DNA of 55,331 bases from Negativicoccus succinicivorans (GTDB lineage Bacteria; Bacillota; Negativicutes; Veillonellales; Negativicoccaceae). The notes below the pieces were generated by a model. It saw only the letters and a program-made list of their open reading frames with translations, ran no database searches and was not told where the DNA came from. A program made the position numbers and the translations under genes. Location: NCBI RefSeq assembly GCF_014207605.1, contig NZ_JACHHI010000004.1:87384-142714 (forward strand). The letters run 5' to 3'. Numbering within the stretch: position 1 is the first letter of the stretch; the number at the start of each line of letters is the position of its first letter. Shown here in pieces: positions 24,831 through 48,365 of this stretch.

Positions 24831-24850
24831 ATACACAAGTTCAGATTGAT

Positions 24851-24996
24851 CTATAGGTGCCGAAAGGCCATAGAGGGAAGCCGGTGCGAATCCGGCACGG
24901 TCCCGCCACTGTAAAGCGGAGCGAGTTCCAAAAGCCACTGGGAAACCGGGAAGGCGGAGCAAGCGATGAAGCGAAGTCAGGAGACCTGCCTATGGG
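24851..24996 (+). ncRNA. Cobalamin riboswitch, first of two
   Basis: Contains the B12-box landmarks: GCCGGTGCGAATCCGGC hairpin, GGTCCCGCCACTG, AAAGCCACTGGGAAACCGGG and GTCAGGAGACCTGCC. The closing stem pairs CTATAGG with CCTATGG. It is followed by a terminator at 25055, so it probably switches transcription in response to a cobalamin. Confidence 0.95.
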
Positions 24997-25054
24997 AAGT
25001 TTCCGTTTGACCTACGAGCGATAGGGAAGGAGAATACGAGCGATCACGCCGTGT

Positions 25055-25081
25055 CTCTTTGCCTACGCAAAGAGCTTTTTT
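25055..25081 (+). terminator. Terminator after the first riboswitch
   Basis: 8-bp perfect stem CTCTTTGC / GCAAAGAG, 4-base loop, then C and T6; the expression platform of the first riboswitch. Confidence 0.88.
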
Positions 25082-25094
25082 AATTGCATATTTC

Positions 25095-25241
25095 CGTATG
25101 GATGCCGAAAGGCCATGAGGGAAGCCGGTGCGAATCCGGCGCGGTCCCGCCACTGTGAAGCGGAGCGAGTTCCAAAAGCCACTGGGAAACCGGGAAGGCG
25201 GAGCAAGCGATGATGCGAAGTCAGGAGACCTGTCCATATGC
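25095..25241 (+). ncRNA. Cobalamin riboswitch, second of two
   Basis: A near-copy of the first aptamer, starting about 245 bases downstream of it with the same conserved blocks; it differs mainly in the closing stem (GTATGGA with TCCATAT) and a few loop bases. Only about 15 bases separate it from the terminator of the first, so both act on one transcript. Confidence 0.95.
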
Positions 25242-25281
25242 AGCACCCGTCAGACTCACGAGCGATGAGAAGGGGAGATTT

Positions 25282-45179: not shown

Positions 45180-46322
45180 TTACATTGATATCTCATCGAG
45201 TTTATCGGCAGCGTCACGATGCATCTGTTCGCTTGCGTGCGAATAAACGGCTAGCGTCGTTTTCGGATTGATATGCCCGACGCGTTCCATGATCGTTTTT
45301 AGTGGAACGCCTAACTCCGCAAGTAAAAATATATGAGTATGGCGAAATACGTGCGTCGTGATGTGGCGCGGCAATTTAAGCGAGCGAAGCGTGTGATTTA
45401 TGTCGGAAAAGCGGATAGGGTTGCCCGTCGACGATGTAAAGAAGTAGCCTTTTTCCGTATATTTGCCCTTATTCCATGCGGCGTCCTTCATGTTTTCAAT
45501 CCGGATCTGGTTCAAAATTTCAATAGCGCGACTGTTGAGCGCTACCGTCCGGAAAGATGACAGTGTTTTCGGCGGCGTTTTTATTTCTTTGGCAGAAAAC
45601 GGGACGGAGTGGGTGATCGTGCCGTTAATATCAATGTTTTGTCCGTCAAAATCTTGATAACGCAAACCGGAACATTCGCCGGCGCGTAAGCCGGTAAGCG
45701 CTATAAATTCAAGCATGAGGGCGTATCTCGGCTTTATTTCGTGTACTTTTTGAAGGACTTCCGCCAGCTCTTCGCGTGTCAAAAACTTTTCGCGCGCGCG
45801 CTTTACATCGTCAACGGTTTTAGCGCGTCCGGAAACCGTCATTTCATGGATAAAACTTATGTCTTCAATATATTTCATTCGCTTAGCGTACTTCATGGAC
45901 TGCTTAAAAAATGAGGCGGTCATGCTGACAGTGACGCCGGACAGGTCGCGCATTTTAAGAAAAGACCTTTGCACAACGGGCAGGGTAATGGCTGATATTA
46001 AAAGACCATCCGGAAATATCTTAACAAGCCGCTTAATCGAATCCGCATGCGCGCGCTGTGTTGACGGTCTAACATCGGGGCGGCGGTACTCCGCATGCTC
46101 TTTTAATAACTCCGCAAGCGTGATATTCTTTGCCGTTTTCGTCTCTTGCGCCTCGTCAATCTTCCGCTGCAATTCGGCGGTTGCCCATTTCATGGTCGCG
46201 TTCGTCTTTTTATCCATCGTAACCGACACGCGCCGACGCTTCCCGGTTAGGCGGTCGACGTACGTTTCAATGGCGCGATAAGAGATCCGGCCGCTTTTTG
46301 ACTTCCGTTCCTCGATATACAT
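45180..46322 (-). CDS. Tyrosine recombinase (integrase) of element 2
   Basis: 380 aa. AP2-like N-terminus (YIEERKSKSGRISYRAIETY), SAM-like core-binding domain, catalytic domain with R213 (TGLRAGEC), H324 and R327 (THVFRHTH), H350 (VGHINPKTT) and Tyr360. Same architecture as the element 1 integrase but diverged. It lies at the element edge and reads outward. AGGAGGAAAA precedes the start. Confidence 0.95.
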   Translation of the reverse strand: MYIEERKSKSGRISYRAIETYVDRLTGKRRRVSVTMDKKTNATMKWATAELQRKIDEAQETKTAKNITLAELLKEHAEYRRPDVRPSTQRAHADSIKRLVKIFPDGLLISAITLPVVQRSFLKMRDLSGVTVSMTASFFKQSMKYAKRMKYIEDISFIHEMTVSGRAKTVDDVKRAREKFLTREELAEVLQKVHEIKPRYALMLEFIALTGLRAGECSGLRYQDFDGQNIDINGTITHSVPFSAKEIKTPPKTLSSFRTVALNSRAIEILNQIRIENMKDAAWNKGKYTEKGYFFTSSTGNPIRFSDINHTLRSLKLPRHITTHVFRHTHIFLLAELGVPLKTIMERVGHINPKTTLAVYSHASEQMHRDAADKLDEISM

Positions 46323-46528: not shown

Positions 46529-47503
46529 TTATGCTTTCGTAGTGTCTATTTTAGGCGTATGTAAATTCCAATTCGGCGGGAACCCGAGTGTCGCTAATAT
46601 GTCGTTTACCTGCACGGAATACAAATGATTTCTTAAGTGACCATTTATTAATTTCCTGATTTTATTGTGAAGCGCAGCATGTTCCATGACGCTTAAGAAG
46701 CATTTGGTAGATAAAAAAACGGTGTATACATCACGGCGGGGTTGCTTGACTAAAAGATTGATATTAAAAGTATCATGCAATTCCGGCCAGTATTTTACCG
46801 GCGCGCGACAATTAAAATTTATAAGTCTGTTATTATGTGCGCACACATTTCGCACATCATTTATATTCGCAAGAAAACTTAACATTGTTTCTGGTGGGAA
46901 TATACTTGCTTTCGGAATCTGCGGTTTTATAAAACGGAACATATCTTTCGCAATTTTATTTTGAATACTTACCGGAGAACATAAAATCATATGTCGCAAT
47001 TCCCCGAAGTTTAAATAATTGACTAAAACCCAAATGGGTACATCATTATATTTTTTAATATAATGACAAATACTTGTATTTGTGAAACGCTTTTGTTTTT
47101 TAATCGTTTTGGATAGGCGTGATATCATTTCCCCAACGATTAATATTTTTGTTGAATCATAACTTGAGGTGTGGAGATATGCATAAGGGATATTAGGATA
47201 GGCTTCAGCGAACCTATATGCGAATACTGCTTTCAAATGGGCTTCAATTTCTAAAATCGCTTTTAAAAAGGCTTGTTTTAATTCTTTATCAAATAAATAT
47301 AATCGAGTAATCTCCTCAAATGTCGTGTGTTTCGTGTATTCATCTCCTTTATGTGGGAAAAATTTACTATATCCATTAATAATATTGTAGTAATTATTTG
47401 TCAGAAGATACCGTTTAGCATTCTGCTCATCAGAAATAATAAGTTTTCGTGTTTTTAATAATGCAACTTGCTCATCTAGTGTCGTAAATTTTTTATCGTT
47501 CAA
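46529..47503 (-). CDS. abiF: AbiF/AbiD-type abortive infection protein (Abi_2 family)
   Basis: 324 aa from the preferred TTG start at 47503, which lies 9 bases after GGGGAGG (47519-47513). The alternative ATG 47521 has no ribosome binding site and sits inside the terminator hairpin. The N-terminus (FTTLDEQVALLKTRKLIISD, then YYNIINGY) is typical of Abi_2 proteins. A HEPN RNase motif R-X4-H is visible (R218-H223, VRNVCAHNNR). The family gives phage resistance by killing or arresting infected cells, probably by RNA cleavage. The gene is markedly AT-rich, unlike its neighbours, and is preceded by a structured RNA. Located between integrase and CI, a usual cargo position in prophages. Confidence 0.88.
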   Translation of the reverse strand: MNDKKFTTLDEQVALLKTRKLIISDEQNAKRYLLTNNYYNIINGYSKFFPHKGDEYTKHTTFEEITRLYLFDKELKQAFLKAILEIEAHLKAVFAYRFAEAYPNIPYAYLHTSSYDSTKILIVGEMISRLSKTIKKQKRFTNTSICHYIKKYNDVPIWVLVNYLNFGELRHMILCSPVSIQNKIAKDMFRFIKPQIPKASIFPPETMLSFLANINDVRNVCAHNNRLINFNCRAPVKYWPELHDTFNINLLVKQPRRDVYTVFLSTKCFLSVMEHAALHNKIRKLINGHLRNHLYSVQVNDILATLGFPPNWNLHTPKIDTTKA

Positions 47504-47583
47504 AGAAAAGAACCTCCCCATATAATGGAGAGGCTCTTAGCCGCGCTGGTCCCCGTAGAGATGGCAGCACTCTTACTTAAGTG
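47500..47583 (-). ncRNA. Structured RNA upstream of abiF (abiF-RNA-like, candidate antitoxin/regulator)
   Basis: Reading leftward from a start near 47582, three consecutive hairpins are seen. They are CACT...AGTG (47583-47568), a stem capped by a UACG tetraloop (47567-47546), and GGCT-AAG-AGCC (47542-47532). A terminator-like hairpin follows (47533-47513, up to 9 bp, loop UAU) with a T-rich tract to 47501. The last hairpin contains the abiF ribosome binding site. An abiF RNA motif has been described upstream of such genes; identity with it is likely but untested. Confidence 0.7.
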
Positions 47584-47588
47584 TCTCC

Positions 47589-47617
47589 ATTATAGAATTA
47601 TAAGATGCTGTTGTCAA
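47589..47617 (-). promoter_or_regulatory. Perfect consensus promoter of the abiF RNA
   Basis: On the minus strand TTGACA (47617-47612), 17-base spacer, TATAAT (47594-47589). Predicted start 47584-47581, immediately before the first RNA hairpin. Confidence 0.88.
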
Positions 47618-47649: not shown

Positions 47650-47691
47650 GCGCGTCTCTCTGCGGGGCGTTGGTAGCGCTCCGCTTTTAAT
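47650..47691 (+). repeat. 42-bp direct repeat flanking the abiF cassette, right copy
   Basis: Partner of 46429-46470 with two adjacent changes (TC to CT) that keep the hairpin. Lies between the abiF promoter and the CI stop. Confidence 0.93.
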
Positions 47692-47717: not shown

Positions 47718-48365
47718 TTAATCTAAGATGATGTTATACATGATCACTTTTCCGATGATCAGCACGTTGTCGGCATCAGCTTTCGGAATGACTAAGTCAA
47801 GAAAGGAGGGATCAGTGCTTGCGGGACGGAAAACGAGCTTTCCGTCAATGTTAAAAAACTGCTTGACGGCGTACTCCCCGTTGTGGGCGAATACAACAAT
47901 ATCCTTGTTGGCCAAGTCGAGAATTTCTATATTTGTTTTAACGGCGATATATGAACCGTCAGGTATGATCTTGTCCATGGATCGGCCATTAATGGGCATG
48001 ATAATAATATCCTTGTTGCGAGCGTATTTGCCTAACAGTGCGTCTGGCACAGTGACTTGCGGTAATTCACTAAGAGCGGAAACTTCAATCGGTAAACCCG
48101 CCGATATAGGCTCAGGAACATAGGAATACGAAAAGGCGGAAAGTGACGGCATGTTGTTTTCTTCTTCGCTCCAACCCATGATGTCGGCAGGCGACACATT
48201 CAGTGCACCGGCAATCTTTTTTATATTGTCATATGGAATATTTCCAATTACGCCTGATTCATAACGCTGGATTGTTTGTCGACTAACATTAACGGCATCA
48301 GCCACTTCCTGCAATGTCATTTGTCGCTGCTGTCGAATGCGGCGGATATTTTCATTAATCATCAT
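47718..48365 (-). CDS. CI/LexA-type phage repressor with S24 peptidase domain
   Basis: 215 aa. Helix-turn-helix at about 17-37 (LQEVADAVNVSRQTIQRYE). Ala-Gly cleavage site at 89-90 (ISAGLP). Serine/lysine dyad S129 (NGRSMDK) and K168 (YAVKQFF) for RecA-stimulated self-cleavage, so the prophage is probably SOS-inducible. AAGGAGG precedes the start; a second ATG one codon later is equally possible. Divergent from the Cro-like gene. Contrast with element 1, whose repressor lacks this domain and is paired with a protease. Confidence 0.94.
   Translation of the reverse strand: MMINENIRRIRQQRQMTLQEVADAVNVSRQTIQRYESGVIGNIPYDNIKKIAGALNVSPADIMGWSEEENNMPSLSAFSYSYVPEPISAGLPIEVSALSELPQVTVPDALLGKYARNKDIIIMPINGRSMDKIIPDGSYIAVKTNIEILDLANKDIVVFAHNGEYAVKQFFNIDGKLVFRPASTDPSFLDLVIPKADADNVLIIGKVIMYNIILD

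Follow-up and report, generated by a model that had tools for sequence, protein, structure and literature searches.

AbiF is considered ancestral to Cas13. RNA antitoxins that restrain toxins of this kind were demonstrated in 2025, for C. difficile with RCd22 (PMC12373285) and for PbAbiF (PMC12737573). RCd22 stops transcription ahead of abiF and acts in trans by binding and neutralizing the toxin, and the toxicity of AbiFCd requires R202 and H207; a riboswitch-like trigger for toxin expression is raised by its authors as speculation only (PMC12373285). In the PbAbiF-AbiFr ribonucleoprotein (PDB structure 8vz6; reviewed in PMC12737573), a member of the HEPN family is bound by an antitoxin RNA encoded beside the toxin, with one RNA per monomer. 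The abiF RNA of Rfam, RF03085, is a hairpin located immediately 5′ of Abi_2 genes.

We analyzed a stretch of 55,331 nt of Negativicoccus succinicivorans DNA, hereafter the window, and give all coordinates as positions in that whole stretch in forward-strand numbering. It harbors a locus with the composition of its closest characterized counterpart, C. difficile AbiFCd-RCd22 in phi027 and phiC2, namely, a sigma-A promoter, a short RNA, a terminator and an Abi_2 toxin gene, all in a prophage. Its parts are as follows.

47612..47617, minus strand: -35 element TTGACA of the antitoxin RNA promoter (with the -10 element, 12/12 consensus positions; spacer of 17 nt)
47589..47594, minus strand: -10 element TATAAT, exact consensus
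47582, minus strand: predicted transcription start (+1), 7 nt 3′ of the -10 hexamer
47542..47571, minus strand: putative antitoxin RNA core, made of a 7-bp stem, a 2-nt 5′ bulge, a 4-bp stem and a UACG tetraloop (covariation; 41.7 bits with our R1 model)
47508..47538, minus strand: intrinsic terminator hairpin of 14 bp, -20.0 kcal/mol
47513..47519, minus strand: ribosome binding site (RBS) GGGGAGG, or segment C, within the terminator 3′ arm (from sequence; overlap kept in relatives)
46529..47503, minus strand: abiF-like toxin gene with a TTG start (Abi_2 PF07751, E 1.1e-39; PbAbiF 8vz6, E 3.3e-22)
46835..46852, minus strand: HEPN RNxxAH catalytic motif (RNVCAH)

The RNA-abiF locus and its relatives

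By profile and motif, the product of the gene is an AbiF/AbiD (Abi_2) HEPN protein, as originally predicted, and it is a presumed toxin. It matched the PF07751 profile with 137.1 bits (curated cut-off, 25.6) and was assigned to AbiD by PADLOC (5e-56), and its sole relative of solved structure by sequence is PbAbiF, to which it aligns over the full length. The residues R218 and H223 of the original prediction, counted from the TTG at 47503, are R224 and H229 when counted from an upstream ATG; in the latter numbering R224, N225, A228 and H229 were invariant among 16 relatives.

The minus-strand promoter proved to be the exact full-consensus TTGACA-N17-TATAAT that had been proposed, of the sigma-70 type. 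The distance between its -10 element and the predicted start is also that of RCd22 when the start determined by RACE (PMC12373285) is placed on the phiC2 sequence. The predicted 83-nt RNA folded with -34.7 kcal/mol, against -22.2 ± 3.4 kcal/mol for shuffled sequences (z = -3.7; none of 200 shuffles equaled it). The fold comprised two hairpins, the composite 7+4-bp hairpin of 30 nt and the terminator, rather than the three of the original prediction, whose UACG loop was nevertheless present. The terminator hairpin containing GGGGAGG was also found as described, with its stem at 47538-47508 and the RBS at 47519-47513. This overlap is conserved, as the terminator 3′ arm holds the RBS in nearly all of 39 loci. 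A mechanical count gave TTG as the first usable start after the T-run in 22 of these 39, in support of the predicted start at 47503. In four abiF relatives (L034, L037, L051 and L059), no start codon but ATT fitted behind the buried RBS. A more compact layout was observed in L041-L048, relatives from Bacilli metagenome-assembled genomes (MAGs), in which the antitoxin hairpin seems to be itself the terminator and is followed by a T-run and an ATG.

We scanned IMG/VR and genome contigs and found 52 relatives with protein identities of 31 to 58%, most of which have a closely related RNA directly 5′ of the gene. The locus also occurs in Streptococcus prophages (L003 and L007-L009). The window RNA gave no match to Rfam abiF RF03085 at the gathering threshold (37 bits), nor even at E ≤ 10, whereas the Rfam library found the phiC2 RNA of C. 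difficile, our positive control, at 37.6 bits. No Rfam family was matched by the window-type RNA in relatives or in phage copies. The compensatory changes in relatives that the original prediction called for were strong. In 23 aligned cores, 93% of the cells were paired and six pairs had both sides changed; covariation amounted to 0.495, compared with 0.250 after shuffling, and none of 500 shuffles reached it. R1, a covariance model that we built for the core, found matches in 5 of the 61 genomes examined from the order. The window RNA is thus an undescribed AbiF-associated RNA in no Rfam family found, and its role would by analogy be that of an antitoxin. The initial reading of a toxin gene under a short, RBS-hiding RNA stands, as does its working analogy to abiF RNA, but membership in RF03085 does not. 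Three RF03085 matches in bacterial genomes (L101, L105 and L107) lay without a convincing Abi_2 gene nearby.

As in type III toxin-antitoxin systems, the gene for a structured RNA lies 5′ of a toxin gene of the RNase type, and a terminator separates the two; tandem repeats are lacking, the window RNA having a single core. The number of AbiF RNA cores is one in RF03085 loci and two in RCd22 and in L060. Termination in cis combined with toxin binding in trans, in the order promoter, RNA, terminator and abiF, is already known from RCd22 (PMC12373285), so that this part of the original reading is not new. RCd22 differs in that its RF03085 motif is present twice and its RBS stands apart, 3′ of the terminator, whereas the window has one non-RF03085 core and the RBS inside the terminator. 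The antitoxin RNA of PbAbiF-AbiFr is of another sequence type than that of the window, where RNA-toxin binding would be expected by comparison only.

The RNA-abiF unit is carried by a prophage, with the following surroundings.

47718..48365, minus strand: CI-like S24 repressor gene, likely source of read-through (HTH_3, Peptidase_S24; phrog_4)
47650..47691: 42-bp direct repeat on the repressor side of the cassette; a third copy lies in a further prophage of this genome
46429..46470: 42-bp direct repeat on the integrase side of the cassette
45180..46322, minus strand: phage integrase gene downstream of the cassette (PF00589; phrog_1)

The unit made of promoter, RNA and abiF is flanked by the two 42-bp repeats. 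Another prophage-like region in this genome, lacking abiF, contains a repressor, a further gene and, upstream of a near-identical integrase, a single copy of the repeat (L055 1501-1542), and the sequences outside the two repeats of the window are contiguous in this empty site. The cassette seems to have entered as one piece, duplicating the repeat. On the minus strand, the repeat at 47650-47691 holds CCCCGCAGAGA, nearly complementary to the core TCTCTACGGGG (47542-47571), with which it pairs in the predicted long read-through RNA, perhaps by chance. Elsewhere, at 24838-25251, the window contains a tandem pair of cobalamin riboswitches.

Complementarity between promoter and terminator

The original prediction had not included a conserved complementarity between the promoter and the terminator, which is new here. 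It involves two segments.

47584..47594, minus strand: segment A, TATAATGGAGA, from about -12 to -2, made of the -10 element plus five bases
47521..47531, minus strand: segment B, TCTCCATTATA, terminator 5′ arm and loop, complementary to A and largely also to the RBS arm C

In the window, A (read from 47594 to 47584) is the exact reverse complement of B (47531 to 47521). Relatives keep the match with quite different letters, as in L025 (AATAAAGGTG), L036 (GAATAGGAG) and L037 (CTAAGGACAG). We compared the match at each locus with that obtained by exchanging promoters and terminators between loci, a procedure that preserves base composition and the shared TATAAT. In 39 distinct loci, the mean own-locus match was 9.0, compared with 5.9 after swapping (z = 11.5), and it was reached in none of 20,000 permutations; the z value was unchanged in 37 non-redundant loci. 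Inspection by eye of more distant relatives showed a match of 7 nt in L015 and none in L062.

Across the 39 loci, the matching stretch extends from -11 to -2 of the promoter. About 80 to 100% of loci matched at -11 to -3, with a peak at -9 to -6 and lower values at -12 (16/27) and -11 (28/35). Matching was 84% at -3 and 62% at -2, and it was at chance from -1, immediately ahead of the expected start site. We also considered that A might directly resemble the RBS arm as a second copy of the -10 element. This likeness was much weaker (z of only 4.3, versus 11.5 for A:B), and therefore pairing with B is what is kept. The coevolution of A and B and its boundary are established at the level of sequence, and the pairing is almost certainly real.

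In phiC2, we read from the sequence a partial match between AATAATAGT and AATATTAGT, which does not appear in the paper on RCd22 (PMC12373285). RF03085 loci of the same phylum differ in that a T-run follows the RNA hairpin itself and the A:B device is absent; most have no separate terminator, and the device is therefore not applicable there.

A possible switch set by the origin of transcription

The composition of B bears on how it may be used. At positions where C is G, B was T in 36 of 43 cases in which segment A has an adenine, which allows U-A with A and U-G with C, and B was C in 99 of 101 cases in which segment A has a G; with swapped A segments, B was T in just 46%. B thus looks like a compromise between two partners, A and C, as in attenuators, which would be the mark of a two-state switch. 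The two pairings, B:C in the terminator and A:B, are mutually exclusive, as in a switch, and both are conserved by coevolution.

We propose the following mechanism. The strong local promoter would produce the antitoxin RNA of about 80 nt, and the terminator would end most transcripts ahead of the toxin gene. Leaky transcripts would also be poorly translated, because the terminator 3′ arm buries the toxin RBS, and the RNA core may bind and inhibit any toxin produced, as deduced from RCd22 and PbAbiF. Segment A is expected to be absent from the RNA of the local promoter and present in any transcript begun upstream, and it is therefore proposed to act as an antiterminator and RBS-release device for upstream-initiated transcripts only. 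In such transcripts, A would pair with B before the RBS arm emerges, hindering the terminator and freeing the RBS. Toxin would thereby come from upstream transcription at a low level, and the strong local promoter would yield the antidote only. The read-through source in the window is probably the phage repressor operon: the upstream gene, which encodes the CI-like S24 repressor, lies on the same strand as abiF, and no same-strand terminator-like site was found between this gene and A. Upstream genes have the same orientation in most relatives, the exceptions being L036 and L051, where they are on the other strand; A:B is nonetheless strong in L036.

In predicted folds of the nascent read-through RNA before C, the own A beat the swapped A in 38 of 39 loci (8.8 versus 5.3 pairs), and the barrier along the direct path from A:B to the terminator had a median of 11.8 kcal/mol, which is an upper estimate. 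At equilibrium, 35 of 39 loci favored the terminator over A:B (in the window, -20.0 versus -11.9 kcal/mol), and antitermination would therefore have to be kinetic. Longer upstream sequence lowered A:B in the predicted folds. At least five A:B pairs formed in all 39 loci with 10 nt of upstream sequence and in 28 with 110 nt, compared with 25 and 14 after swapping; in the window, A:B was almost gone with 80 nt upstream (0.05 pairs) and was back at 6.0 pairs with 110 nt. Energies in the trp attenuator, which operates through the order of folding, are similar. Like leaders of the trp type, the window has three segments with mutually exclusive pairings and similar energies, and it differs in that A lies within the promoter, so that the origin of the transcript would decide, not a ligand or a ribosome. 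In the transposase genes of IS10 and IS50, the sequence just 5′ of their own start alters translation only in transcripts begun outside. The effect proposed here is of the opposite sign: in those elements outside transcripts bury the RBS, whereas pairing of A with the anti-RBS arm would release it.

The locus might instead be an ordinary AbiF antitoxin locus, with the RNA acting in trans, the terminator and buried RBS acting in cis, leaky read-through supplying the toxin, and A:B having no role in expression. RCd22 operates in this manner, its promoter also giving rise to a read-through transcript of 1,086 nt, and no antiterminator has been described for it (PMC12373285); the prevalence of the terminator over A:B at equilibrium points the same way. 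This explanation, which we find rather unlikely, does not account for the coevolution of A with B, for its abrupt stop at the start site or for the U-A/U-G compromise that B displays. It is improbable that A:B acts on DNA or in trans, either by pairing of a released B with the melted non-template promoter strand or as an inverted repeat for protein binding. A does overlap most of the region known to be melted in an open promoter complex, and G-U accounted for 14 of the 57 A:B mismatches in own loci and about 18% in swapped ones, a slight enrichment that does not single out RNA-RNA pairing. However, the match ends at -2, whereas a full bubble would reach +2, recognition by one protein fits poorly with A and B differing between loci yet staying matched, and a released B would be locked in a very stable hairpin.

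With about 50 to 60 nt between their arms and a hairpin-forming core in the middle, these loci are quasi-palindromes of the sort known to be corrected by template switching. Such switching from one inverted repeat to the other might re-match the arms repeatedly as the DNA is replicated and so maintain A:B neutrally. We regard this as highly improbable: conversion tracts should not end at one promoter position everywhere, whereas matching falls from its value at -3 to chance two positions on, and the linkers between the arms have not become one long palindrome. B might also copy the -10 region if the opposite strand carried a second, convergent promoter. The reverse strand of the window terminator does read TATAAT, with a promoter-like site scoring 10/12 at 47499-47526 on the plus strand, but matching peaks at -9 to -6, with lower values at -12 and -11, which are the positions critical for a promoter, and L004, L036 and L025 match only at about -9 to -2, without a reverse -10 element. 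We rejected an antisense promoter on this positional profile and give it hardly any credence.

Our preferred reading, with a probability of roughly 55%, is that an AbiF/AbiD HEPN toxin is held by the upstream antitoxin RNA and that the A:B switch lets only upstream transcripts make toxin. Antitermination and RBS release by A:B, taken separately, have about an even chance, because the terminator is usually the more stable structure at equilibrium.

Free-standing copies of the RNA in phages

Searching with a DNA pattern of the core yielded 21 viral stretches, and a second such pattern yielded 20. Twelve of these viral records have no Abi_2 gene anywhere in the contig (L070, L073, L075, L078, L080, L081, L084, L085, L093, L094, L096 and L097), and two of them share identical local sequence. 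Since IMG/VR records may be fragments, the absence of abiF is provisional for those records. R1, which was trained without these orphan copies, scored them at 36 to 49 bits. In twelve orphan-type cores, including two copies from Streptococcus agalactiae phages, the stems were 94.7% paired and covariation was above that of all shuffles.

A tRNA or tRNA-like sequence adjoins the core in L070, L073, L080, L085 and L093, and terminase genes lie near it in L070, L080 and L085. L073 is a 108-kb contig related to the Herelleviridae phage LfeInf, in which no copy of the antitoxin RNA was found. In L093, a 71-kb phage contig, the orphan core is directly followed by a ROOL RNA (RF03087) and tRNAs, at 826-1467. 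In more than 20 records of S. agalactiae phages, an unannotated array of tRNA-like sequence ahead of terminase and portal genes includes a core-like RNA, for example at the following positions.

L098 2503-2532: core-like RNA of S. agalactiae phage Javan39
L099 2494-2523: core-like RNA of S. agalactiae phage Javan35

No Abi_2 gene was found in Javan39. The only one in Javan35 is distant, with about 23% identity, and lies under another RNA. The orphan copies are candidate RNA decoys against AbiF. Their precedent is the pseudo-ToxI of phage phiTE (PMC3475682), in which a phage likewise carries a copy of an antitoxin RNA of type III, there for a different toxin.

In its broadest form, the idea is that the promoter serves as antiterminator of its own downstream terminator, such that a local start gives antitoxin RNA only and a polymerase coming from upstream gives toxin, and that phages answer with free-standing antitoxin RNA copies in tRNA and small-RNA arrays. 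We hold this combined proposal tentatively, at slightly below even odds. The orphan copies, including that of the LfeInf-related contig, would point to an RNA-based counter-defense against AbiF. As to how RNA-restrained AbiF toxins come to be expressed, the coevolving pair offers a concrete answer, that the origin of transcription decides. If this is true, the locus would serve as a compact genetic device for distinguishing transcription begun locally from that begun upstream.
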